Under the pieces are notes generated by a model, which was given only the letters and a program-made list of their open reading frames with translations, ran no database searches and was not told where the DNA came from. 64,000 nt of DNA from Sheuella amnicola (GTDB lineage Bacteria; Pseudomonadota; Gammaproteobacteria; Burkholderiales; Burkholderiaceae_B). The position numbers and the translations under genes are program-made. Below, one piece after another: positions 7,618 to 32,878 of the stretch (its first letter is position 1; every line of letters starts with the position of its first letter). Location: NCBI RefSeq assembly GCF_010499255.1, contig NZ_JAAGRN010000001.1, positions 372,001 through 436,000 of the forward strand, written 5' to 3'.

Positions 7618-9459
7618 ATGAAAAATCGAAACCCTAGTATACGCAAGGCGGTCGCGACGTGTCTGGCCTTGGCATATTTACTGCCCATCCCTGCCTCGAT
7701 TGCACAATCACCTGCAGTCCAATCAAGCTCAGCGCCTCAGGATGTTGCAGTCGTCAAATATGACAATTCATTCGAAATATTCAAGCCTGTGTGGGGTTTG
7801 AAAGGAATGGTCGCAACGGAACAACACCTGGCGACCCAGGCGGGTGCTGAGATATTGCGACAAGGCGGAAATGCAGTCGATGCGGCTGTCGCGGTCGGGT
7901 TTGCTCTTGCGGTCGTCCTGCCGAATGCGGGCAATCTGGGTGGCGGCGGTTTCATGCTCATACACGATTCAGCAAAATCGGAATCAATCGCCCTGGATTT
8001 TCGCGAGGTGGCTCCTGCTTCTGCGACCAGGGATATGTACCTCGATGACAAGGGCAATGTGATTGCGGGGAAATCAACTCGCACGCCCTACTCCGTTGGC
8101 GTTCCCGGAACCGTTGCCGGATTGACTCAGGCATTGTCTGAACATGGCACTATGCCGTTAGCCAAAGTGATGGCGCCGGCAATCAAACTGGCGACTGAAG
8201 GATTCAGGGTTAGTCCGGTACTGGCTGAACAATTCAACAACCAGCGCACTCACCTCGAGCGCTGGCCCGCCACGAAAGCGATTTTCTTCAAGCACAAATC
8301 ACCTGCATCAACGTGCCGTCTAGAAGAATGTCCTGCCGCAGAAATAGAGCCCTATAAATCAGGCGACCTACTGATTCAAAAGGATTTGGCGCATTCTTTG
8401 AACCTGATCGCCCAACATGGAGCAAAAGGATTTTATGAAGGCGAGATCGCCAAGAATATCGTCCGATCACTGACTGATAGTGTGTCGACAATGACGCTTG
8501 CAGATCTGTCGAATTACAAAACAGTAAAGCGCAAGCCGGTCGAGGGTACATATCGAGGCATCAAAATACTCTCGATGCCAGCTCCAAGCTCTGGAGGCAT
8601 TCATCTTATTCAGATGTTGAATCTTCTTGAGCGCTATCCTCTACAGGATTACGGATTTGGTAGTGCGAAAAGCATTCATCTGATGGCTGAAAGCGCGCGA
8701 CTTGCTTACGCCGACCGCGCAGAGCACCTAGGTGATCCGGAATTTTTCAAAGTGCCGGGCAAGGGACTCGTATCAAAGAAATACGCCGATTCTATTTCGC
8801 CACTCATCAACATCGAAAAATCGACTCCCAGCAAAAACATCAAAGCCGGTCAGCCGCAAAACTACGAAAGCGATCAGACAACGCACTTCTCAGTCATGGA
8901 TGATCGTGGCAATGTAGTGAGCACGACATACACATTAAATCTGAACTTTGGATCAGGCATCGTAGCTGGCGGCACAGGTATTTTGCTCAATAACGAAATG
9001 GATGACTTTTCGATTAAACCCGGGGTCGCCAATGCTTTCGGACTTGTCGGTGGAGACGCAAACGCGGTTGCTCCCGGTAAACGGCCTCTTAGCTCGATGA
9101 CACCAGTCATCCTGATGCGTGATGGCCAGCCGTGGATTGCGACAGGCTCGCCCGGCGGAGCACGTATCATTACAACTGTGCTGCAAAATATCGTAAACGT
9201 CATCGATTTTAAAATGAACATCGCTGAAGCTGCATCCATGCCACGCATGCATCACCAATGGTTGCCAGACTTTTTAAGGGTCGAGCGTGGAATCAGCCCG
9301 GATACGATCGAAAAGCTCAAGGCCATGGGGCACGATGTGAAGGTGATGCCGACCATGGGTAGAGTGCAAACAGTGCAGTACGAAAATAAACAGTTTTACG
9401 GCGCATCGGATCCACGCAATCCAGATGGGTCGGCAATCGGAATCGAGCAAAAGAAATGA
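7618..9459 (+). CDS. ggt: Gamma-glutamyltransferase, exported (Ggt)
   Basis: About 613 residues from the ATG at 7618; a GTG at 7606 would add four. The N-terminus is a Sec signal peptide with an alanine/leucine-rich core ending near SIAQ. The mature protein matches the GGT family: a large subunit starting near [15 protein letters not shown], then the autoprocessing site DQ|TTHFSV with nucleophile Thr at about 421, and the PLSSMTPVI and GSPGGARI blocks. The enzyme cleaves or transfers gamma-glutamyl groups of glutathione in the periplasm. Its stop overlaps the yicC start by four bases. Confidence 0.95.
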
Positions 9460-10382
9460 CAGCAAGCATGACCGCATTCGGCCAGGGAAAGGCCACCATG
9501 GATTTCGGGTCCGTCACTGTCGAGCTTAAATCCGTCAATAGCCGGTATTTGGACATTCAGTTCAGAATGCCGGACGAACTGCGTTTCGCGGAACAACCAA
9601 TGAGGGACCGAATTTCTAAATCCCTCGCGCGAGGAAAAGTCGAGGTACGCGCAAGTTTTGCGCGCAATGTACCCGCGCTTGAGCAAAGACTCACTGAACA
9701 GGCGCTCACGAACATTGCTGACCAACTAAGTCATGTCAGGCGTTATTTGCCTGAAACCAATTCGCCACAACTGCCTGAAATCATCTCGCTGGCAAGCGAT
9801 CAGCAACAAACTGCAATCGACCCTCAACTTTGGGCCAATGCTTGCATGCAAGCGCTTGAGCCTGCACTAGTTCAACTCACCGAAGCCAGATTGCGAGAGG
9901 GCTCACGCCTTGCGATGGCCATGCTCGAAACGTCGAAACAAGTGTGTGAAATCGTAATTATGGTTGAATCGCATTTGCCCGAGTTATTGCAGCAACAACG
10001 GGAAAAGCTCTCCAACAAACTGCGCGAAACGATTCAAAACGCCTTTCCATCCGGGTTTACTCATATCTCCGGTGCTGAGCTATCAGAAAGAATCGCCGGT
10101 GAATCAAGTCTATTTTCACTCCGAATAGATGTCGCGGAAGAGTTGGCAAGACTTAAATCGCACTTGTCCGAACTCGAGTTCCTCTTGTCAGAGCAAAAAA
10201 CAAAATCGACGGGGAAAAATTCGGGAAGCACCGGAAAGAGACTGGATTTCCTTTTTCAGGAAATGAATCGTGAAGCGAATACGCTCGGATCCAAGGCGGG
10301 AAGTCTCGAAATGACTCGCGCCGCCATGGATTTAAAACTCTTGATCGAACAAATGCGCGAACAAGCGATGAATATCGAGTAA
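9456..10382 (+). CDS. yicC: YicC family endoribonuclease
   Basis: 308 residues, usual length. YicC proteins are RNA endonucleases, and yicC is often followed by gmk. The N-terminal YicC_N block begins [20 protein letters not shown] and contains ELKSVNSRYLDIQFRMP. The C-terminal DUF1732 block contains GKRLDFLFQEMNREANTLGSK and ends LKLLIEQMREQAMNIE. The start overlaps the ggt stop (ATGA). The usual partner gmk is 1.8 kb downstream, separated by two minus-strand genes. Confidence 0.93.
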   Translation: MTASMTAFGQGKATMDFGSVTVELKSVNSRYLDIQFRMPDELRFAEQPMRDRISKSLARGKVEVRASFARNVPALEQRLTEQALTNIADQLSHVRRYLPETNSPQLPEIISLASDQQQTAIDPQLWANACMQALEPALVQLTEARLREGSRLAMAMLETSKQVCEIVIMVESHLPELLQQQREKLSNKLRETIQNAFPSGFTHISGAELSERIAGESSLFSLRIDVAEELARLKSHLSELEFLLSEQKTKSTGKNSGSTGKRLDFLFQEMNREANTLGSKAGSLEMTRAAMDLKLLIEQMREQAMNIE

Positions 10383-11194: not shown

Positions 11195-12058
11195 TTACCG
11201 GCCAGGTCCGGTTTCAACCGGAGAATCCGGCTGAGCGCTCCATTCGCTCCACGACCCGCCATAAAGCGAAGCTCCGGAAAACCCGGCAATCTCCATTGAC
11301 AATAACAAATGGCAAGCTGCAACGCCAGAGCCGCAACTAGCGATGACTTGGCTGGGCGTTCTATCACCGATCAGAGCCTTCAGTTCCGAAGTGAGTGTTG
11401 CGCGATCCTTGAAAAAACCGCTGGCGTCGAGATTATCCTTTGCGGGACGGCTAACTGCGCCAGGCATATGCCCAGCTTTTGCATCGAATGTTTCGTTCTG
11501 GCCTTGAAAACGATCATTCGGGCGCGCATCGATAATCAACTGTTCGGGTTGCTTGAGACTTGCAAGAACATATGCATAATCAACTTTGGAAGCCAGTGGC
11601 TCTCCAACTTTAAAATCGGATACTGGACGCGCAGCAGGCAGATCGGTTGTCAGCGAATAACCTGCCGCAACCCAGGCCTGTAAGCCGCCATCCAGAACCC
11701 GAACCTTTGAATGTCCTACCCACCTTGCCATCCACCAGAGTCGGGAAGCATAAGATCCGCCCGTGCTGTCGTAACCAACGATAGTGGTATCTCCAGTAAC
11801 ACCCAGCTGCGAAAGGCGTTTGGCAAAAGTCTCACGCGTCGGCAAAGGATGACGGCCGTTCTTTCCGGTTTTTGGATCACTCATTAGTTGATCAACGCTG
11901 ACATAGACCGAGCCCGGAATATGAGATTCACCATATTGGCGTCGCCCCAAATCATGATCGACCAAATCGTAACGGCAATCCAGAATCAGCACGCGACCGG
12001 GGTCTTGCACGTAAAGTTGGTGTAGTTCATTGGCTTTAATCAGCGGGGATATCGACAT
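11195..12058 (-). CDS. sseA: 3-mercaptopyruvate/thiosulfate sulfurtransferase
   Basis: 287 residues with two rhodanese domains. The N-terminal inactive domain runs to about 140 (LILDCRYDL, SHIPGSVYVSVD, GRHPLPTRETFA). In the catalytic C-terminal domain the active Cys is C242 in SCGSGVAACH. The CGSGV-A loop is of the mercaptopyruvate sulfurtransferase type, not the CRxG type of thiosulfate rhodaneses. It transfers sulfane sulfur from 3-mercaptopyruvate to thiol acceptors. It is divergent from gmk with 97 bases between starts. Confidence 0.9.
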   Translation of the reverse strand: MSISPLIKANELHQLYVQDPGRVLILDCRYDLVDHDLGRRQYGESHIPGSVYVSVDQLMSDPKTGKNGRHPLPTRETFAKRLSQLGVTGDTTIVGYDSTGGSYASRLWWMARWVGHSKVRVLDGGLQAWVAAGYSLTTDLPAARPVSDFKVGEPLASKVDYAYVLASLKQPEQLIIDARPNDRFQGQNETFDAKAGHMPGAVSRPAKDNLDASGFFKDRATLTSELKALIGDRTPSQVIASCGSGVAACHLLLSMEIAGFSGASLYGGSWSEWSAQPDSPVETGPGR

Positions 12059-12155: not shown

Positions 12156-12800
12156 ATGACACTGGCCGCAGGAAACATATTTTTAGTCTCTGCCCCAAGC
12201 GGAGCCGGCAAGTCAAGCCTGGTCAATGCGCTGTTGGCAAAGGATCAATCGATCAGATTGTCCGTATCCTGCACCACGCGTGCACCGCGCCCGGGCGAAG
12301 TCGATGGCAAAGACTATCGTTTTCTAAGTGTCGATGAATTCCTTGATCTTCAGCGCAAAAATCAATTTATCGAGTGGGCAAAGGTTCATGACAACTACTA
12401 TGGCACGCCCCGGGATTTAATTGATCAGGCTACGCATAATGGACAAGATGTCCTGCTTGAAATTGATTGGCAAGGTGCTCGCCAGGTCAAAAAGCTATTT
12501 CCCGGCACAATAGGCATTTTCATCCTGCCGCCATCAATCGTCGCACTCGAAGAAAGGCTTCAGCTTCGTGGACAGGATTCGCAGGAAATCATTTCGAAGC
12601 GGATTCTTGCCGCAAGCGAAGAAATCTCGCACGCATCCGAGTATGAATATGTTATTATTAATCAAGACTTTAGCGTTGCACTGCGGGATCTTGAACTAAT
12701 CATACATTCCGCAAGACTTCGCTATAACAGCCAATCGAACAGACACGCTGAGTTCTTTTCGACTTTTGGTCTCCAACCCGGACAAACATCGATTGGCTAG
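12156..12800 (+). CDS. gmk: Guanylate kinase
   Basis: 214 residues, usual length. It phosphorylates GMP to GDP with ATP. The P-loop is [11 protein letters not shown] near residue 11. The GMP-binding block [19 protein letters not shown] follows, then [15 protein letters not shown] and [15 protein letters not shown]. It is first in the common gmk-rpoZ-spoT group, so nucleotide metabolism and ppGpp turnover are encoded side by side. Confidence 0.97.
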
Positions 12801-12841
12801 CCGTTATACTTTGGCTGATATTCAACATTAACAGGACTAAC

Positions 12842-13045
12842 ATGGCACGCATTACCGTTGACGATTGTCTCGAAAAAATCCCCAATCGCTTCAAGCTGAC
12901 CCTCGTCGCAACCTACCGTGCGCGTGAGCTTGCACAAGGCCATGCACCTCGCATCGACAGCAAAGACAAGCCCACCGTCACCGCTTTGCGTGAAATGGCA
13001 GCCGGCCTGACAGGACTGGAAATGTTGCGCAAGGTTCCGACCTGA
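12842..13045 (+). CDS. rpoZ: RNA polymerase omega subunit
   Basis: 67 residues, normal for betaproteobacterial omega. It begins [20 protein letters not shown] and contains the conserved [11 protein letters not shown] and [13 protein letters not shown] blocks. Omega helps assemble RNA polymerase and forms part of a ppGpp binding site. It lies 41 bases after gmk and 12 bases before spoT. Confidence 0.97.
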
Positions 13046-22896: not shown

Positions 22897-23271
22897 TCAG
22901 TAAGTCAACACGGTCGTATCCGGAGCCGTTGCACGCTCAAGCATGGAAACCATACCGATCACCTGACCGCATTCGGCAATCAAATCCTGCGGCATCAAAC
23001 TTCGATCGCGCAAAGCCGAGCTGCATGCTTGAATCACCACGCCAGCATCAAGTGCATCTTGGATGTACTGTGACAAAGGACGCATCAGTGGCCACACTAG
23101 TAGATGACGACGATCGTTGTTCGAGACAAACATTTCGATACTGGCGCCTAGCGCATGTATTTCAACAGTCATTTCCATTGCCCTAGCCGTTAACGCAAGC
23201 ACGAATGGGGTCGCTGCGCGATTGACATCGTCACAGCTTGATTGCCAGAGCTGGATGATCAATGTTTTCAA
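22897..23271 (-). CDS. DsrE-family sulfur-carrier-like protein
   Basis: 124 residues, single DsrE/DsrF-like domain. The DsrE3-like pattern is clear: an N-terminal strand KTLIIQLW, then DVNRAATPFVLALTARAM, then LSQYIQDALDAGVVIQACSSALRDRSL with C83 at the usual position of the reactive cysteine, and ending LIAECGQVIGM. Other cysteines are C13 and C101. DsrE proteins bind and pass on persulfide sulfur. The start overlaps the lipoyl-carrier stop by four bases, so the two are almost certainly made together. They sit at the end of the selenoprotein formate dehydrogenase cluster. The specific partner is unknown. Confidence 0.8.
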   Translation of the reverse strand: MKTLIIQLWQSSCDDVNRAATPFVLALTARAMEMTVEIHALGASIEMFVSNNDRRHLLVWPLMRPLSQYIQDALDAGVVIQACSSALRDRSLMPQDLIAECGQVIGMVSMLERATAPDTTVLTY

Positions 23272-23738
23272 GAAGCCGAGCCCTTTACGTATGTATCCAG
23301 CGATTCAAAATTGAACATATCCATGAGCGATCTCGCGCGATGTGCCACCTGGTCACCATGCAACAAGATTTCATTAGCCTCGCCACAGCGTAAAGCTCGC
23401 AGCTTGACCAGCCAGGCTTGATAAGGCGCCTGATTAATGATGCTAGGTCTCTGTTGAGGATCCGGATTGGTTTCTACGATGATGGCATCGAATGGCGTAC
23501 GTACCGGCAATACCGTTTTAGCCGCCTCAACAAGAGCGAATGCTCGCGAAGCTTCAATTTCTCTACCGATTGGTTTGGGATTGAACATGTAAAGGTCACC
23601 CGACAATGCGTGTCCGAACACCGTGATGCCGACTTCGAAAGTGTCCTTTTCTACCTGACGAAACCAGAGATTAAGATCGCTGTCATACAACAAGTCGTCC
23701 GGAAATGAGCAACCGCGCACCTCACTCATAAGACCCAT
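23268..23738 (-). CDS. GcvH/LbpA-like lipoyl-carrier protein
   Basis: 156 residues. Residues about 10-115 match the glycine cleavage H-protein fold: GCSFPDDLLYDSDLNLWFRQ, FEVGITVFGHALSGDLYMFNP, and ALVEAAKTVLPVRTPFDAIIVETN with K74 at the lipoylation position. The opening GCSFPDDL resembles LbpA, the lipoate-binding protein of sulfur oxidation, more than canonical GcvH. A C-terminal tail of about 40 residues is extra. No gcvT or gcvP is present. The start is 15 bases after tRNA-Sec; a second ATG at 23729 with a GGGATGGG ribosome site may be the true start. It is coupled by overlap to a DsrE-like gene. Confidence 0.78.
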   Translation of the reverse strand: MGLMSEVRGCSFPDDLLYDSDLNLWFRQVEKDTFEVGITVFGHALSGDLYMFNPKPIGREIEASRAFALVEAAKTVLPVRTPFDAIIVETNPDPQQRPSIINQAPYQAWLVKLRALRCGEANEILLHGDQVAHRARSLMDMFNFESLDTYVKGSAS

Positions 23739-23752
23739 CCCGATATGATCGA

Positions 23753-23849
23753 TGGCGGAAGAGTATGGGAGTCGAACCCACCAAGGACTGTACGACAGCC
23801 CTTCCCGGATTTGAAGTCCGGACGTCCCACCCGGGATCGCGACTCTTCC
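23753..23849 (-). tRNA. selC: tRNA-Sec (anticodon UCA)
   Basis: The minus strand folds as a selenocysteine tRNA. It has an 8-bp acceptor stem (GGAAGAGT pairing with ACTCTTCC), discriminator G and an encoded CCA at 23755-23753. The anticodon arm is CCGGA-CTTCAAA-TCCGG with UCA at 23814-23812. A long variable arm hairpin (AAGGGCTGT-CGT-ACAGTCCTT) and a T arm TGGG-TTCGACT-CCCA complete it. Length without CCA is 94. It lies 32 bases downstream of selB, apparently in the same transcript, and is needed to read the UGA in fdoG. Confidence 0.97.
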
Positions 23850-23881: not shown

Positions 23882-25813
23882 TTAACCGAAAAGATTAGCA
23901 TTTCTAATAATACGCTGATCTTTATCTGTCGTCTGAGCGCTGCGTGATACAGAAATCAACCGCCTGGAAAATCCGATCCTGTCCAGGGCCTCGAGTATCT
24001 GGATCGCCCGCTTTCTGCCGATACCAAGGCTATCCCTGAAGTGCACTACAGTAATAAACCCATGAGTAGAAACTAAATATTGCATCGTATCAGCGATTCT
24101 ATTCATGGTCGCCTGAGGGTAAAACAAATCTTTGACGACCTGGGTCAAATGCGATTGGCGTGCTTGTTTTCTGAACAATAGGCGCACAGCGTCCTCGGTT
24201 GCATCAATTGAATGCGCCACATCCCTCACCCACGGCGCATCGAATCCACCTTCAAGTAAAACAGGATACGCCTTGTCCCACAAGCTTTGCTCCAATTCGC
24301 TCAACACAACCTGATGTTCTGGCAGATGTATAAAACTGCCCGATGTGGCAACGGCACCTTGCTCTATGCGCGATTTGATCCATGAATGGAAGAACTGCTG
24401 TGTCAAATCGGGGCGGCACATACGCCTCAAACGCTCGACCCCAAGGCCCGGCTCATCGGGATCCGAAAGATGAAACTTTTCAAGGCATCGATGCACAACT
24501 AGGTTGAGATCATCCGCAAACGATTGACTGCAAATGAAACATTGGGAATCTACGATGTGCGATTCAGCGATTCGAGACTTCAATATTAATTTGAGCGAGT
24601 CGAAAGACTGGTTCGTTGCATGCGCCCAATGCGTCATGTTCAAAGGTTGATCTGACATTAACAAAAGTGCAGCAATCGCATCATGAGAATCGGCACAATC
24701 TATGGCATCCAATTGAGAGAGCCTTTCGGATCTTTTGCGGCCACGCACAGGTGGATCCGTATCCAGAACACGCGCGCCGGCCAAAGTATGACGGGCGCTT
24801 CCATCGCGCAGCACAAGCCTGTCACCCCAGCAAAAAGGCAGTGCCCGTGATAAGACACACTGCGCCTTACATGTTTGACCGGGCAATAATTCGGCTGCAT
24901 CAAGCAATATCATGCGGGCCGAAACATGTGTTGTACCGTGATGCAACAAAACAAGTTCACCATCCTTCAATGATCGGGAAGAGTCTGCCGGCATGAAAAG
25001 CTTGCAATCGATTCGCTTGCTGGAGTCGGAAATTTCCTCCGACAAGAGCCATTCTCCACGCTCGATATCTTTAACTTCTATGCCTGATAAGACAATGCCG
25101 CAGCGGCTACCCGCCTCTGCCCGCTCGACGGACTGATTTTGAGCATGGATCGAACGCACCTTGACACGATGATTTGAGCCGGACGTCACTAACAAATCAC
25201 CGACTTGAACATGTCCGGAAATGACTGCGCCCGTGATACCGACCCCCATCCCTTTAACGACAAAAACACGATCTACGGCAAGCCTGAAATAGTCACCCGA
25301 CTTTTTATCCGCACATCGATTGATCGCAAAAAGATGATTCCGCAATGAATCGATTCCGGCCCCAGTATGGGATGAAACTGTAAACAGCGGGCTTGTGGAA
25401 AATCTGGATTGTGCAAGTTCAGCCTTGATCTCGTATTGAACCTGACGCAAACGATCATCGTCGACAAGATCAGACTTGTTGATCGCGACAGTCAATCCCG
25501 GGATGCCAAGCAAATCCAGAATACGCAAATGCTCACGCGTTTGAGGCATGATGCCGTCATCGGCGGCAATCACGATCAATCCATGATCCATTCCGCAGGC
25601 ACCGGCAGCCATGGTGTGAACAAATTTTTCATGACCCGGAACATCCACGAATCCGATCATTTCACCACTAGAGGTCGGTGCATACGCAAAGCCCAACTCG
25701 ATTGTGATGCCCCGCTTTTTTTCTTCAGGAAGCCGATCGGCATCTACGCCTGTCAGCGCTTTGACTAAAGAAGTTTTACCGTGATCGATATGGCCGGCAG
25801 TTCCGATGATCAT
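23882..25813 (-). CDS. selB: SelB, selenocysteine-specific elongation factor
   Basis: 643 residues. The N-terminal EF-Tu-like GTPase has G1 [10 protein letters not shown], a switch region with [14 protein letters not shown]3 DVPGHEKF and G4 NKSD. The domain 2 and 3 barrels follow, then a C-terminal half of winged-helix repeats that bind the SECIS hairpin. It carries Sec-tRNA to UGA codons in selenoprotein mRNA. Its start overlaps the selA stop by four bases. Confidence 0.96.
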
Positions 25814-27261
25814 TTGGATTCTGTAGAACGTTTCAACGCGTCTGTCATCAGAGCGATCAAGTCGGCCTCCTGATCGGGACGCAAACAGCGCAAATCAAAC
25901 AACAAGGCACGATCCTGCACACGCCCAATCACGGGAGTCTGGCCTGCTCTCAAAGATCTTTCGATGCGTAGAATTAATTTTTCAGCGGATTTACTCAACG
26001 GCTGAATCATCAGGGCGGCAGACAATAACCGCTCAACAGGCAATGAACCCGAACCGATTTGCGACTTCACCGCTAGGCACCGCAACTCCAAGGATAACGA
26101 AGCAAATACAGGACGTAGTTTTTCGATCAAACGCATGACCTGTTCTTGTATGTCCGTCTCATTGCGCGTAAGCTGCTTGAGTACCGTCAAGCGCTGCGGC
26201 AACGCTTCTGGATGACGATAAAGCCGTAAAACAGCCTCAAGACCGGCAAGCGTGATTTTGCCGACTCGCAATGCTCTTTTCAGAGGATTACGTTTAATCT
26301 TCTGAATCAACTCCTTTTTGCCTACGATGATGCCGGCCTGTGGGCCTCCAAGCAATTTATCGCCGCTGAAAGTGACCAGATCGGCACCCACTTTTATTGC
26401 TTGCGCGGGAGTGGGCTCGGTCGGCAGACCGTAAAGCGCTAGATCGATCAGTGTGCCCGAACCTAGATCAACAACAAAAGGTATGCCGTGACTGTGGGCG
26501 ATATCTGCCAGTTGTTTTTCGGGAACTTCAGCCGTAAAACCTTGAACAACATAATTGCTCGTGTGCACTTTCATGATGAGCGCAGTCTTTTGACCCAATG
26601 CTTCCTGAAAGTCTTTTGCGTGAGTCCGGTTTGTGGTGCCAACCTCGACAAGTTTGGCTCCGGCACGCTTCATGATGTCGGGAATCCTGAACGCTCCGCC
26701 TATTTCAATGAGTTCGCCACGGGAAACGATGGTTTCTTTGCGGTTTGATAATGCCTGCAACAACAAAAAAACTGCAGCCGCGTTGTTGTTGACAACCGTT
26801 GCCGCTTCGGCGCCCGTCAATTCGCAAAGTAATTCCTCGACAATCTCGTCGCGGTCGCCACGCTTGCCTTCGCCTAAATCATATTCAAGGGCACACGGTT
26901 CAGTTGCAGCTGCCACCATCGCTTCAACGGCTTCGGCGGGCATCACGGCACGGCCGAGATTGGTATGCAACACCGTGCCGGACAAATTGATGACTTGCCG
27001 CAATTTGGGTTTTTGTCTGTCGATGAGATATTGATCTATACGCCCCAGAATCGACTGTTCCGAGATGTCTAGATGCGTGGATCCATTCAAAATATCCTTT
27101 CGCATCGAATCCAAAACGGTACGCGTTGCTTCAATAAATGACTGTCGACCGTAAGTGGACTGAATGCACAGGGAATCAGGCAAAGACAATAGTCGGTCTA
27201 CGGAAGGAATCCTGGAAAGCAGGTCTGTCACGGGCGCACGCGCCACGTCTATATTGTTCAT
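25810..27261 (-). CDS. selA: SelA, L-seryl-tRNA(Sec) selenium transferase
   Basis: 483 residues, usual length. A PLP enzyme that converts Ser-tRNA(Sec) to Sec-tRNA(Sec) using selenophosphate. Visible blocks are INLSGTVLHTNLGRA (about 91-104), EGKRGDRDEIVEELL, VNNNAAAVFLLL, and FSGDKLLGGPQAGI with the PLP lysine at K302. The N-terminal domain that binds tRNA(Sec) is present. No selD (selenophosphate synthetase) is seen in this window. Confidence 0.96.
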   Translation of the reverse strand: MNNIDVARAPVTDLLSRIPSVDRLLSLPDSLCIQSTYGRQSFIEATRTVLDSMRKDILNGSTHLDISEQSILGRIDQYLIDRQKPKLRQVINLSGTVLHTNLGRAVMPAEAVEAMVAAATEPCALEYDLGEGKRGDRDEIVEELLCELTGAEAATVVNNNAAAVFLLLQALSNRKETIVSRGELIEIGGAFRIPDIMKRAGAKLVEVGTTNRTHAKDFQEALGQKTALIMKVHTSNYVVQGFTAEVPEKQLADIAHSHGIPFVVDLGSGTLIDLALYGLPTEPTPAQAIKVGADLVTFSGDKLLGGPQAGIIVGKKELIQKIKRNPLKRALRVGKITLAGLEAVLRLYRHPEALPQRLTVLKQLTRNETDIQEQVMRLIEKLRPVFASLSLELRCLAVKSQIGSGSLPVERLLSAALMIQPLSKSAEKLILRIERSLRAGQTPVIGRVQDRALLFDLRCLRPDQEADLIALMTDALKRSTESK

Positions 27262-27287: not shown

Positions 27288-28211
27288 TCAGGAAATAAAA
27301 AAAAGATTGCGGCACGTACGCATGTAGCCCTCATCCGCCAAAGCGACATCCAATGAGTACGTTGCCAGGTCATCAGCCATTGCATCGATCAGGGGGTCTT
27401 TAGATTGCAACATCAGTTTCAAATAACCCTTGCAATCATCGCAGCATTCGCCTTGAACAGCATCATCACGCGTACGACCGAACATTGAAACCTCTTTGGG
27501 CGTATCGCAGTTAGTGCAACGGGCTCGAGGGGCGTACCACTCCGCATTGCATAAAGAGCAATTCAAATATCGATGACCTGCACGATCTCCCATTCTGATC
27601 GTACTGGCCACTGGATGTGATCCGCACACCGGACATAGACCAGATTCACCATGATGCAATGATACGAGCGACTCGAGTTGTCTTGCCCGAACTGTCCAGA
27701 TCACTTGCAATGCGGCACCAATAAAAGGCGCGTATTCAACAGTCACTTTCGCATCATCAGCCTCTAGCATGGCATGCGCCTGGGCCATCTGGTCCTGAGG
27801 CGCAAGTTTCAGCAGCCCTTCTACAGCTTGCAAAACTTTTTCAGATGAATTGACTTGCTTGATTGCCTTGCAAATCGATGACAACACCGAAGTGAAATTC
27901 GGCCCCGGCTGAGCGGATGAAATCGAAAGCGGAGGCATATGATGCTTGAAGGATTCGCGCACCACATGCTCGGATACCGGTGCTGAATCGACAAGATTCA
28001 AACTGGCCGCCTGGGCGCGCGACAATTGTGCGCAAAACTCAAGCCACGGCGATCCTTGTTCCCGCACGGACAACTGATCAAGGCGAGCGGCTCGGTCAGT
28101 GAAGAGAGATTTCGCATCAGCCAACACCAACAAAGGTGTATCGTCATCGGGCATCCCCTGAATTTCGCCAGGCTGAATAATTTTTACGGCTGAAACCGTC
28201 ATAGCATCCAC
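27288..28211 (-). CDS. fdhE: FdhE, formate dehydrogenase accessory protein
   Basis: 307 residues, normal for FdhE, a rubredoxin-like iron protein needed for formation of active respiratory formate dehydrogenase. The C-terminal half holds paired cysteines: CPVCGSHPVAS, YLNCSLCNAEWYAPRARCTNCD and GECCDDCKGYLK. It starts 26 bases upstream of selA and lies 70 bases after fdoI, with a terminator-like hairpin between. The usual sulfurtransferase partner FdhD is not encoded in the window. Confidence 0.93.
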   Translation of the reverse strand: MDAMTVSAVKIIQPGEIQGMPDDDTPLLVLADAKSLFTDRAARLDQLSVREQGSPWLEFCAQLSRAQAASLNLVDSAPVSEHVVRESFKHHMPPLSISSAQPGPNFTSVLSSICKAIKQVNSSEKVLQAVEGLLKLAPQDQMAQAHAMLEADDAKVTVEYAPFIGAALQVIWTVRARQLESLVSLHHGESGLCPVCGSHPVASTIRMGDRAGHRYLNCSLCNAEWYAPRARCTNCDTPKEVSMFGRTRDDAVQGECCDDCKGYLKLMLQSKDPLIDAMADDLATYSLDVALADEGYMRTCRNLFFIS

Positions 28212-28281: not shown

Positions 28282-28908
28282 CTATTTCTGACCGGTTTCT
28301 TCCTTGTACCAACCGGGATGATGCTTGCGTGCCCAGGCACGGCTAACCATTCCGGTTTTCATGGCCGACAAAGTGCCTTTGACCCAAATCGCCGCGTACA
28401 CATGGACGATCACGGTGATTATCAACGCCCAGGCAGCAATCGCATGCACAACAGCCGCGATGCGTCTGACATCGACAGTGAAGTACTGGGAGAAATATGG
28501 ACGCCAGAACATCACGCCCGTAACCACCAAGGCAATCAGCGAAATCACCATCACCCAGAAGGCTACTTTCTGGCCACCGTTATAGCGCCCGACTTCCGGC
28601 AGGCGCTCTTCATGATTGCCTATCACATCTCCTATCTGCTTTAACCACTGACGATCGTTCTTGGTGATGAGGTTGTGATGCCAGAATCGGAAGAACATTC
28701 CGACAAACGCGACGAACATGACCGCACCGAAAAACGGATGCAGAATGCGCGTCCAAGACCCACCACCGAAAAGAACCGTCAGCCCGAACATAGACGGATG
28801 AAACAGCGCCAGACCGGACAAGCCGGCGACCACGAACAACAAGGCCACTACCATGTGATTCAGACGTTGCGACCCGGTGTAACGAACCAAACCGTTTTGA
28901 TTAGACAT
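28282..28908 (-). CDS. fdoI: Formate dehydrogenase gamma subunit, cytochrome b556
   Basis: 208 residues, an integral membrane cytochrome with four predicted helices (about 20-38, 55-72, 112-132, 148-170). Histidines suited to heme b ligation are in RLNHM, HPFFG and the helix HAIAAWALIITVIVHVYAA. It passes electrons from the beta subunit to the quinone pool. It starts 11 bases after fdoH. fdnI would be an equally valid name. Confidence 0.94.
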   Translation of the reverse strand: MSNQNGLVRYTGSQRLNHMVVALLFVVAGLSGLALFHPSMFGLTVLFGGGSWTRILHPFFGAVMFVAFVGMFFRFWHHNLITKNDRQWLKQIGDVIGNHEERLPEVGRYNGGQKVAFWVMVISLIALVVTGVMFWRPYFSQYFTVDVRRIAAVVHAIAAWALIITVIVHVYAAIWVKGTLSAMKTGMVSRAWARKHHPGWYKEETGQK

Positions 28909-28919
28909 GGTTGTTCTCC

Positions 28920-29804
28920 TTAAGCCTTGTGCTGTTCATCTGATTCATCTTCTTCGACCGTATTCGGCCCCTTGACCGCATAGTGCAGTACGCCGGCAAA
29001 GGCGGCTGCAGCCATGGAAATCAAGGCGATCGGTTTCATGATCCCTTTCCAGAGACCCACGGTCGGAGCGATGGTCGGATCGGCCGGTAATCCGCTGTAC
29101 GCAGTCGGTTTGTCGCCATGAGGCAATACGTACATGACATGCGTGCCACCCACTCCTTTCGGGTTGTAGAGTGTCGCCTTGTCGTATCCGCGGCCCTTGA
29201 GGTCCTTGATCCTTTCGTTCGCGTACTGGATACGCTCTTCTTTGGGACCAAAGGTCAGCGCCTGTGTCGGACATGATTTAACACAGGCCGGATCCTGCCC
29301 TTCGGATACGCGATCCGAACACAGAGTGCACTTGGTCGCCTTGTTAGTCACAGGAGAAATGCGCGGCACATCGAACGGACATCCAGCAGTGCAATAACCA
29401 CAGCCGATGCACTTGTCGGAATTGAAATCCACAATGCCGTTATCTAGTTTGATAATGGCACCGGGACTCGGACAAGACTTCAGACAGCCCGGATCCTCAC
29501 AGTGCATGCAGCCGTCTTTGCGTATCAACCAATCGATTCCGCCTTGGGCGTTTTCGATTTCGTTGAACTTCATGACAGTCCAGGCCTGAGGTGTCAGATC
29601 GGTCGGGTTGTTGTAAGTGCCGTTGTTCTCGCCGATGGGAGGACGCGTGTCATTCCATTCCATACAGGCGACCTGACATGCCTTGCAACCGATACATGTA
29701 GAAATATCGATCAGCTTGGCGACTTTTGTCGTCTTGGCCGCATCTGCAGGTGGTTTCATTGTCGTGGCGGATGAGGCGACGACGTGTAATGCTTGCTTAG
29801 CCAT
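28920..29804 (-). CDS. fdoH: Formate dehydrogenase beta subunit, iron-sulfur
   Basis: 294 residues with four ferredoxin-type cysteine groups binding 4Fe-4S clusters: CIGCKACQVACMEWND, CMHCEDPGCLKSCPSPGA, CIGCGYCTAGCPFDVP and CTLCSDRVSEGQDPACVKSC. A C-terminal membrane helix (around 250-272) anchors it to the periplasmic face beside the gamma subunit. There is no signal peptide, as expected because it is exported with the Tat-carrying alpha subunit. It starts 11 bases after the fdoG stop. Confidence 0.96.
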   Translation of the reverse strand: MAKQALHVVASSATTMKPPADAAKTTKVAKLIDISTCIGCKACQVACMEWNDTRPPIGENNGTYNNPTDLTPQAWTVMKFNEIENAQGGIDWLIRKDGCMHCEDPGCLKSCPSPGAIIKLDNGIVDFNSDKCIGCGYCTAGCPFDVPRISPVTNKATKCTLCSDRVSEGQDPACVKSCPTQALTFGPKEERIQYANERIKDLKGRGYDKATLYNPKGVGGTHVMYVLPHGDKPTAYSGLPADPTIAPTVGLWKGIMKPIALISMAAAAFAGVLHYAVKGPNTVEEDESDEQHKA

Positions 29805-29815
29805 GTCGTCTCTCC

Positions 29816-32800
29816 TTATGCCTTTTCAATGTTAACCAGGAAAGCCTTGAATTCAGGCGTCTGGGAGTTCGCGTCGCCGACAAACGGAGTCAGCGTATTG
29901 GCAAGCTGGGTCTGCTTAGTCTGCCCCTTGAATCCGAAATGGATCGGTATGCCGACGTGGTGAACAGTCTTGCCATCAACCTTCAGTCCCTTCATGCGAA
30001 TCGTCACAACCGCCTTGGCATGCACCCAACCGCGAGCAGATGTCACCTTGACGCGATCACCGCCCTTGATGCCCTTTTCCTTGGCAAGCGCTTCGCTGAT
30101 TTCAACGAAGGACTCAGGCTGAATTATGGCATTGAGCTGAGCATGCTTGGTCCAGTAATGGAAGTGCTCCACCAAGCGATAAGTTGTCGCTGCGTAAGGA
30201 AAGTCCTTACTACTGCCAAAGACTTCCATGTCACCCTTGTAGACGCGGGCGGCAGGATTGGACTTGACCTTGGGATTGTTAGGATGCAGCGGGTTCTTAT
30301 CCAAGGGGGACTCGAACGGCTCGTAATGTTCGGGGAACGGGCCATCCGCCATGGCAGGCGCAAACAAACGCGCCACCCCTTCAGGATTCATGATGAAGGG
30401 CATGACGTTCTCGTCCGGTTTTGCATTAGGACGCATATCCGGCACATCGGCCCCACCCCACTTATCGCCTTCCCACTTCAACACGACACGGTTCGGATCC
30501 CAAGGCTTACCTTGCAAATCGGCCGAAGCGCGGTTGTAGATAATGCGACGGTTGGCTGGCCACGCAAAGCCCCACTTGAGCGTTTGGCCCAAGCCCTGGC
30601 TGGAGGCATCGGTCGGATCGCGGCGGGCTGTCATATTGCCGTCCTTGTTCCACATGCCCGAATAAATCCAGTTGCCACAGGCCGTTTCGCCCTTATCGGA
30701 CAATTGTGCAAAGCCCATCAATTGTTGTCCGGCGGGAACGATCACATTACCTGCAGCGTCCTTGAGGTCGACCAACGCGCGACCGCTGATTTCGCGAGCA
30801 ACTTCAGAAGCATCAGGATTGAGCTTGTTGGTGTAATTCCAGGTCAGATTCAAAATCGGATCAGGAAACGCGCCACCTTCGGCTGCATACATATCGCGCA
30901 GCTTGCTGAACAATGTGCCTATGATTTCCTGGTCGCCCTTTGACTCTCCGGGACCATCGGCGCCCTTCCAGTGCCACTGAATGACGCGTCCTGAGTTTGT
31001 GAACGATCCATCTTGTTCAGCAAAACAGGTAGCCGGCAAGCGGAACACCTCAGTCTGAATGGAAGCGGAATCAACGTTGTTGTAGTCGCCGTAATTTTTC
31101 CAGAACTCGCCCGTTTCGGTGGCCAGTGGGTCGATCACGACAAGATACTTCAACTTCGAAAGCGCGGCACCAATCTTGTTCTTGTTCGCAACAGCTGCAA
31201 GAGGATTGAAACCGGAACTGATGAAGCCTTCCATCTTGCCCTGATGCATCCGCTCGAAAATGGCAAGCACATCATAAGCAGCATCGCGCTTTGGCACCCA
31301 GTCATAACAATAGTTATTGTCCGCGGTTGCCTTATCGCCATACCAGGCTTTCATCAAACTGTTGAACCATTTCGGGAAGTTCTGCGGGAAGTTCATCTGC
31401 CCCGGTCGCAAGGCTTTTGGCGTGCGCGCATTGCGGTACGTTTCGTAGTCCTTGTCCGCCTCAGTCGGTGAAGACAGATAGCCAGGCAATACCTCCGAGT
31501 ACAGGCACATGTCTGTAATGCCCTGAACGTTGGCATGACCGCGCAAAGCGTTGACGCCACCACCTGCCATACCCATATTGCCCAGAAGCAGTTGGATAAT
31601 GGCCATGGTACGGATGTTTTCCGAACCAACCGTGTGTTGAGTCCATCCGAGCGCGTACAAGATCGTCATCGTCTTGTCCGGGCCTGCGGTGCTTGCAATC
31701 ATCTCGCACACTTTCAGGAATTGATCCTTTGGCGTGCCGGTGATGTTGCTCACTACATCCGGCGTGTAACGCGAGTAATGCTTCTTCATCAACTGGAAGA
31801 CGCAATTCGGATCCTGCAAGGTCGGATCAACCTTGGCGAATCCATCTTCCATCTGATATGTCCACGTACCTTTTGAATAGGCGCGCTTGCTTTCGTCGTA
31901 TCCGCTGAATAAACCGTCTTTGAACGAGAATTCAGGATTGATCAGAAAAGCGGCATTGGTGTAATTGTTGACATACTCGTGATGAATCTTGTCGTTTTCG
32001 ATCAGGTAGCGAATAACGCCGCCCAAAAAGGCAATGTCCGCGCCAACACGAATCGGAGCGTAATAATCGGACACGGCAGCCGATCGCGTATAACGCGGAT
32101 CAACCACAACAAGCTTTGCGCCGCGCTTTGCCTTGGCCTGAATGACCCATTTGAAACCGCAAGGATGTGCCTCGGCAGCATTGCCACCCATCACAAGCAC
32201 AAGATCAGCGTTCTTGATGTCAACCCAGTGGTTGGTCATCGAACCACGCCCAAACGTCGGAGCCAGACTGGCTACCGTCGGAGCGTGTCAGATACGCGCT
32301 TGTGTATCGAGTGCGACAACACCAAGAGAGCGCAATACTTTTGCGCTCAAGTAGCCGGCTTCATTATTCGAAGCCGAACTGACGAGCATGCCGAAAGTAT
32401 TCCAGCGATTAACTGTAACGCCATCCGCGTTCTTGGTGATGAAATTCTTGTCGCGATCAGCCTTCATGCGCTTGGCGATACGCGTCAAAGCCTCGTCCCA
32501 TGAAATCCGCTTCCACTCTTTCGAGCCGGGTTCGCGTACTTCGGGAAACTTAAGACGATCGGGACTCTCGATCATTTCGAGAAGACCAGCACCCTTAGGG
32601 CACAAAGTACCCTTGTTCACGGGATTATCGGGATCACCCTCGACGTGCATGACTTTAAGCTTGCCGTCCTGTGTCTTCTTGCTGTAGAGAAGCACACCGC
32701 AGCTAACGGAGCAGTACGGACAGGTACTGCGTGTTTCAGTCGTTTTTTCAAGTTTGTTGGGTTTGCTGAAGACTGGATCCGCAGCATGTGCCAGTCCCAT

Positions 32801-32878
32801 GACCGACATGCTGCTTGCACCGAGCCCTGCACCCGTCACCTGAAAAAATTGACGTCGTGTCAATTTTATTTGGGACAT
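29816..32878 (-). CDS. fdoG: Formate dehydrogenase alpha subunit, selenocysteine-containing, Tat-exported
   Basis: One gene of 1020 residues read through an in-frame UGA at 32290-32288, which encodes Sec197. Sequence on both sides matches FdnG/FdoG: LDTQARI-Sec-HAPTVASLAPTFGRG, then MTNHWVDIKNADLVLVMGGN. Residues 1-32 are a Tat signal (LTRRQFFQVTG). A 4Fe-4S cluster motif C-x2-C-x3-C with a distal Cys (STCPYCSVSCG, TLCPKGAG) precedes the bis-MGD molybdopterin domains. It oxidises formate to CO2 in the periplasm. Standard gene calling would split it into pieces of 196 and 807 residues. A SECIS hairpin and sel genes downstream support Sec insertion. Confidence 0.97.
32245..32290 (-). promoter_or_regulatory. 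SECIS element of fdoG
   Basis: Directly after the UGA the mRNA folds as a bacterial SECIS. A lower stem CACGC/GCGTG is topped by an upper stem CGG-U-AGCC closing on GGCTCCG with an AGUCU loop (32269-32265) and one bulged U (32274). The bulged U and the GUCU loop core are the features SelB recognises in E. coli fdhF and fdnG. Confidence 0.88.

Follow-up and report, generated by a model that had tools for sequence, protein, structure and literature searches.

A lipoyl-carrier-like/DsrE-like gene pair linked to selenocysteine-type formate dehydrogenase loci, a candidate sulfur relay for the metal cofactor

In Escherichia coli, fdhD is needed for all three formate dehydrogenases (FDHs), its product sulfurating the cofactor with IscS-derived sulfur; according to the cited passages, the gene is nearly always found near fdh operons, yet is missing in some FDH-expressing organisms (PMC10609526, PMC6239281). 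In Methylorubrum extorquens, FDH activity and tungsten content are described as requiring fdhD (PMC13197769), and FdhD is further reported to bind and transfer the cofactor (PMC10609526). Sulfuration of FDH in vitro is said to be possible with sulfide under reducing conditions (PMC12140954). Lipoate carriers and DsrE-type proteins meet in sulfur oxidation: LbpA of the sHdr pathway has a GcvH-like fold and a lipoyl lysine, is encoded in the same clusters as DsrE-type genes, and is reportedly not modified by the canonical lipoylation machineries of E. coli and B. subtilis (PMC6067878). Two further DsrE-domain proteins with an active Cys serve as precedents: DsrE3B, whose gene is described beside those of lipoamide-binding proteins (PMC4175335), for a link between DsrE and lipoate carriers, and the TusA-DsrE protein YedF/FdhU, reportedly linked to Se-dependent FDH formation in Campylobacter (PMC5322559), for a link between DsrE and selenium or FDH. 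Among the titles and abstract openings listed, from a search with subscription papers and preprints outside its scope, none deals with a lipoyl-carrier-like/DsrE pair in an FDH locus; 'lipoate-binding protein' and 'formate dehydrogenase' occur together in a single paper, which does no more than cite the LbpA work.

Such a pair occurs in the window (the whole stretch of DNA analysed, 64 kb in length), where the gene order, all on the minus strand, is fdoGHI-fdhE-selA-selB-selC-H-like-DsrE. The gene of the catalytic subunit, fdoG (29816..32878), reads through a single in-frame TGA (32288-32290; U221 of the translated stretch), with a TIGR01553 match containing this one TGA and an Rfam SECIS_3 element at 32235..32293; it is followed by fdoH for the iron-sulfur subunit (28920..29804), fdoI for the cytochrome b subunit (28282..28908), fdhE (27288..28211), selA (25810..27261) and selB (23882..25813), all recognised by profile matches, and by the selenocysteine tRNA gene selC (23753..23849), called by ARAGORN and Rfam. 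After a gap of 14 bases comes the gene of the LbpA/GcvH-like, lipoyl-carrier-type protein, here termed H-like (23268..23738; 156 aa, ATG start), with the codon of Lys74 at 23517-23519; the DsrE-like gene (22897..23271; 124 aa, TTG start), with the codon of Cys83 at 23023-23025, overlaps it by four bases. The first-pass annotation had described this overlapping pair, its two residues and its place directly after selC in line with the fdo, fdhE and sel genes, and in all of this it is borne out: both frames are present as placed, with Pfam matches to GCV_H (1.3e-22) and DsrE (25.5 bits against a cut-off of 22.7, E 1.6e-5), and same-genus alignments of 15 and 16 proteins show no variation at Lys74 and Cys83, respectively. 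Its statement that fdhD, selD, gcvT, gcvP and hdr are absent holds for the window, where none was noticed by eye in the ORF lists and where FdhD queries find no match over the full 64 kb, but not for the genome, which carries fdhD on contig 3 and selD on contig 8; lipB and a separate gcvH both lie on contig 5. About 11 kb from the pair and unlinked to it, the window also contains a rhodanese/SseA-like sulfurtransferase ORF (named by eye; 11195-12058, minus strand), a possible sulfur donor.

Judged by its sequence, the H-like protein is distinct both from GcvH and from the LbpA of sulfur oxidation. In an alignment and tree of 102 H-type rows (45 FDH-linked, L213 included, 46 labelled LbpA and 11 GcvH), the lipoyl lysine is invariant, as is the glutamate three residues before it; the FDH-linked label was assigned from genome context, though in agreement with sequence, and rows were labelled LbpA from their fetched context in a few cases and otherwise from a lack of FDH linkage, mostly within 1.5 kb only. 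For two LbpA-labelled rows (L048 and L049), genes of the dsrE, hdrB and lipoate-ligase types were recognised by eye in this context. The lysine is followed by T in 39 of the 45 FDH-linked rows, by W in all 46 LbpA-labelled rows, and by A in 9 of the 11 GcvH rows. An N-terminal Cys (C10 in the window protein) is a likeness to LbpA, found in 28/45 FDH-linked against 46/46 LbpA-labelled rows; a Cys anywhere in the last 35 residues occurs in 6/45 against 44/46, and the window protein has none. The earlier designation as LbpA/GcvH-like thus stands for the GCV_H family and the lipoyl lysine, but not for a standard LbpA, given T instead of W and the mostly missing C-terminal Cys. With GcvH, the protein shares the fold and the position of the lipoyl lysine; its identity as a plain GcvH was rejected, as it scores 58.1 bits against the NCBIfam GcvH equivalog (cut-off 115.85), coexists with the separate GcvH, and has K-T rather than K-A, with no gcvT or gcvP noticed beside it.

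In the tree, LbpA rows form one clade (100/96) and GcvH rows another (100/100), whereas the FDH-linked rows fall into two sets of 34 and 11, the smaller one without the N-terminal Cys; a single clade of all 45 is neither rejected (p-AU 0.36) nor demonstrated. Their nearest relatives outside the FDH-linked rows are LbpA-labelled, some of them from sulfur-oxidation-type clusters. The predicted model of the H-like protein has the H-protein fold, with glycine-cleavage H proteins as best PDB matches, at a modest mean pLDDT of 70.5 (41.6 to 51.2 in four other models).

Lys74 is a predicted lipoylation site. LipB scores over cut-off in the genome of the window; of 8 other pair carriers searched, 6 likewise have it, and the two in which it was not found, G002 and G011, are fragmented assemblies. 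A ligase of the LbpA-specific sLpl type is found in none of the 32 same-genus genomes (E<=1e-10), with a query that does find it in G045 and G049. Since LbpA is reportedly not a substrate of the canonical machineries, lipoylation of the H-like carrier would imply a difference from LbpA on this point.

The DsrE-like protein is modelled with a DsrE fold at a mean pLDDT of 94.8. It is a single-domain protein, in contrast to YedF/FdhU, with no TusA domain and no match to the YedF model TIGR03527, and differs from DsrE3B in its place at FDH-N rather than at hdr genes. Cys83 is kept in 39/39 FDH-linked rows and in 28/28 others, five of which are duplicates of FDH-linked genes; the conservation in homologues that the first-pass annotation had called for is therefore found for both residues, the Lys being present in 45/45 FDH-linked rows. 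With the five duplicates removed, the 39 FDH-linked rows lie all on one side of a branch (94/93), and the group that matches the smaller H-like set stands apart (100/98), which suggests shared inheritance of the two genes. Close to the FDH-linked type are also orphan DsrE genes, for example in L248 (G049:C70, 9529-9909) and L249 (G081:C4, 9744-10106), both on the minus strand; order-wide, orphans of this kind have no adjoining H-like or FDH genes, and their host genomes have FDH-N and no FdhD match.

Within the genus, the H-like protein is present in 18 of 32 genomes, the window's included (E below 1e-40), always with a Sec-tRNA gene directly before it (18/18); DsrE follows in 17, with a broken frame close to a contig end in L032, and the contig of the eighteenth (L041) stops before the gene could be reached. 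Of the 17 loci other than the window's, 8 show fdo genes, 7 are cut short by the contig end, and the remaining 2 have no fdo genes beside the pair. These last two, from G002 and G017 (L046 and L047), have selA-selB-selC-pair next to an RND efflux-type operon (by eye) in place of fdoGHI, and their FDH-N sits on a different contig.

Beyond the genus, the scan of named genomes found 29 loci with an alignment query and none with a single-protein query; 18 were examined, the remaining 11 matching same-genus contigs in length. Four Zoogloea loci, among them that of the isolate Zoogloea dura, show the full order fdoGHI-fdhE-selA-selB-selC-H-DsrE, with a MobA-like gene directly after the pair in three. 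The sel genes can be missing from between: L122 has fdoGHI-fdhE-H-DsrE, the pair of L190 likewise follows fdhE directly, and in L192 and L196 it comes one ORF later. Other neighbours relate to the cofactor: moeA is divergent from fdoG in L190 and L196, modA (over its curated cut-off) follows the pair in L191, and TupA-type genes follow it in L192. In L123, three ABC-transport genes come after H-DsrE; TupA is the sole match of the binding protein, and the permease has a general permease family as its best match and TupB as the next, the TupA and TupB scores lying under the respective equivalog cut-offs. MobA-like matches occur in 7 of 46 pair loci scanned. In one branch, the gene directly before H-like encodes, judged by eye, a membrane protein of the PepSY type with 400-420 aa (L192, 18073-19332; L196, 13954-15171; L123, 76-1284). 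Four loci with 37-41% identity (L124, L126, L127, L128) have no fdo, sel or DsrE match and were counted as LbpA-type.

An order-wide search for the DsrE-like protein gives matches in 82 of 399 genomes. At 8 of the 29 best DsrE loci, the window's excluded, the neighbour is H-like, and each of the eight has fdo, fdhE or sel genes alongside, with one ORF between selC and H-like in L189. Twelve further loci were picked for a DsrE match within 30 kb of FDH-N; eleven have the order selC, H-like, DsrE (with more than 1 kb between selC and H-like in L234 and L240), and in the twelfth, from G284, H-like lies between fdhE and selA, and selC is followed by a DsrE gene in convergent orientation. With linkage defined as a DsrE at most 30 kb from FDH-N, and with G297 added for a pair near fdhE on a separate contig, linked pairs are found in 20 genomes of 10 family codes, the window's included, with H-like seen in all 20; an eleventh family code is represented by G066, whose pair locus is cut before fdoG. 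The first-pass annotation would have given way had the pair been equally common away from fdo and sel genes, but the pairs found sit at fdo, fdhE, selC or Mo/W-transport genes. The linkage of pair and FDH is no accident, and the pair very probably belongs with FDH maturation.

The distribution of FdhD suggests in which step. By a search that is positive in 8 of 14 control genomes, FdhD is undetected (E<=1e-3) in 14 of the 18 pair-carrying same-genus genomes, 8 of these at least 90% complete and one that of an isolate, Zwartia hollandica (G005). All 7 FdhD genes of the genus adjoin fdsA, another FDH. No FdhD is found in 5 of 11 genomes of the named loci, namely Zwartia hollandica, the isolate Polynucleobacter sp. 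MWH-Loch1C5 and the three with LbpA-type loci L126, L127 and L128; over-cut-off FdhD is present in the three Zoogloea genomes searched and in those of L122 and L112, and the genome of L123 has a divergent match only. The FdhD gene is also beside fdsA in one Zoogloea MAG and in the genome of L122, but not in Zoogloea dura or another Zoogloea MAG. At the loci themselves, FdhD is found in 0 of 46 with the pair, by a search that finds it in 13 of 13 controls; of six genomes from neighbouring lineages whose Sec FDH loci were inspected and are pair-less, five have over-cut-off FdhD (G032, G034, G035, G042, G058) and one has no match (G049).

Order-wide, FDH-N is over cut-off in 88 of the 399 genomes. 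Over-cut-off fdhD lies within 20 kb of FDH-N in 28 of the 88, a linked pair is found in 20, and both are found in none (P 1.4e-4, kinship not corrected, matches below the FdhD cut-off being left out; in G284, FdhD is 22.9 kb away). Anywhere in the genome, over-cut-off FdhD occurs in 6/20 linked against 34/51 unlinked Sec-type genomes (Fisher p 0.0076, kinship not corrected), the window's own genome being one of the six. Because the genomes are related, these statistics overstate independence, and lineage is a strong confounder of the pattern. The only FdhD match is one below cut-off in 8 of the 20 linked genomes, where it may be functional, and in 102 of all 399, 11 of them with FDH-N. The 22 FDH-N genomes without any FdhD match divide into 6 with a linked pair, 14 with an unlinked LbpA-type match (E<=1e-28) and 2 with neither (G265, G408); among the 49 unlinked FDH-N genomes with over-cut-off FdhD, an H-like profile match (E<=1e-22, by eye) is found in none. 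A divergent FdhD-like protein below cut-off is encoded in L182 (G438:C180, 1030-1896, minus strand) beside moaA-like and mobA-like genes (by eye).

Travelling with Sec FDH, and often without FdhD, the pair may be an unrecognised route to finish the metal cofactor. Specifically, we give an even chance to its being a dedicated sulfur relay that matures the Sec-type membrane formate dehydrogenase FdoGHI. Cys83 of the DsrE-like protein would take sulfane sulfur from a cysteine desulfurase, TusA or a rhodanese-type donor and pass it to the lipoyl group at Lys74 of the H-like protein, a step modelled on LbpA and DsrE of sulfur-oxidation systems; the dihydrolipoyl arm would then free sulfide with its own two electrons, so that the Mo- or W-bis-MGD cofactor receives its sulfido ligand. 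The proposed role is thus that of FdhD/FdsC at the same kind of FDH locus, in unrelated protein families; the pair would replace FdhD where this is absent and, where both are present, would serve a different FDH or act in parallel. Linkage, residue conservation, the identity of the subfamily and the FdhD pattern are the observations behind this relay, whose chemistry is inferred, and the cofactor-related neighbours (mobA, moeA, modA, TupA-type) count for it. Against it counts over-cut-off FdhD, present in 6 of the 20 linked genomes and in each of the three Zoogloea genomes searched, as do the eight other linked genomes whose below-cut-off match may be functional. Further points against it are the 16 FDH-N genomes with neither a linked pair nor an FdhD match, the status of Lys74 lipoylation as a prediction, and the LbpA-specific type of ligase, which was not found in the genus. 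In addition, FdhD acts as a carrier of the cofactor itself, a task that the pair may not perform. More broadly, a lipoate-dependent route to the sulfido ligand of Mo/W enzymes, with the pair replacing FdhD in part of the order and unlinked LbpA/DsrE possibly doing likewise in FDH-N relatives without FdhD, is a tentative proposal at somewhat less than even chance.

A further point against the relay opens the main alternative: each of the 20 linked genomes is Sec-type, and no linked pair occurs in the 16 Cys-only FDH-N genomes (the type of one genome is unsure), which a pure sulfuration role does not require. The pair could instead handle selenide or selenopersulfide for SelD or SelA, and hence act in selenocysteine synthesis; this is kept as a rival because the FDH-linked pairs are all Sec-type, and it accords with the position of the pair after selC in most loci, with L046 and L047, where the pair accompanies sel genes without adjoining fdoGHI, and with the reported role of YedF/FdhU. 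Yet a linked pair is lacking from 51 of 71 Sec FDH-N genomes, some pairs come after fdhE without intervening sel genes or adjoin Mo/W-type transport genes, and the absence of FdhD is left without a reason. The second-type selB loci of 14 same-genus genomes, which show no window-type selA match and no Sec-tRNA nearby, have no adjoining pair either. We consider the selenium role unlikely. Where the first-pass annotation had offered sulfur or selenium for this enzyme, the FdhD pattern favours sulfur, and the evidence on selenium is neutral, most Sec FDH-N genomes being unlinked and every linked FDH-N being Sec-type.

Rather improbable, too, is a role beside FdhD rather than in its place, in which the pair would re-insert sulfur lost to O2 or assemble with FdhE: the sulfido ligand is reported to be quickly lost in O2 and restorable (PMC12140954), pair and over-cut-off FdhD do occur together in the six linked genomes, and H-like adjoins fdhE in some loci, but FDH-N loci in genomes without FdhD would then go unexplained, unless FdhD is dispensable there. 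That the pair is a sulfur-oxidation or glycine-cleavage paralog merely located at an FDH locus is very improbable, for while both families are used in those pathways and the nearest non-FDH relatives are LbpA-labelled, the linkage is kept over many families, the sequence signature is separate and the genome has its own GcvH; plain sulfur oxidation was rejected, as the sequence type differs and the window's genome has no second LbpA-type protein (E<=1e-14).

The sulfur relay is a concrete, testable candidate, with isolates in which FdhD was not found. If true, it would give lipoate a role beyond carbon metabolism and sulfur oxidation, and could help in producing CO2-reducing formate dehydrogenases in foreign hosts.

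A second type of SelB occurs in the genus. G018 and G019 (L083, L084) have only a second-type SelB over cut-off and no H-like protein; in G019, FDH-N is present with neither pair nor FdhD seen, and its fdoGHI-fdhE-selA contig ends inside selA, so that a first-type SelB gene may have escaped assembly. L080 (G000:C9:101000-120900) encodes, at 8330-10240 on the minus strand, a second SelB paralog that shares 33.5% identity with that of the window; a TrxB-like gene (by eye) adjoins it. Near this selB, at 12700-13008 on the same strand, lies a candidate selenoprotein gene, an ORF with a UGSC motif whose frame contains a TGA (GD-TGA-GSC).
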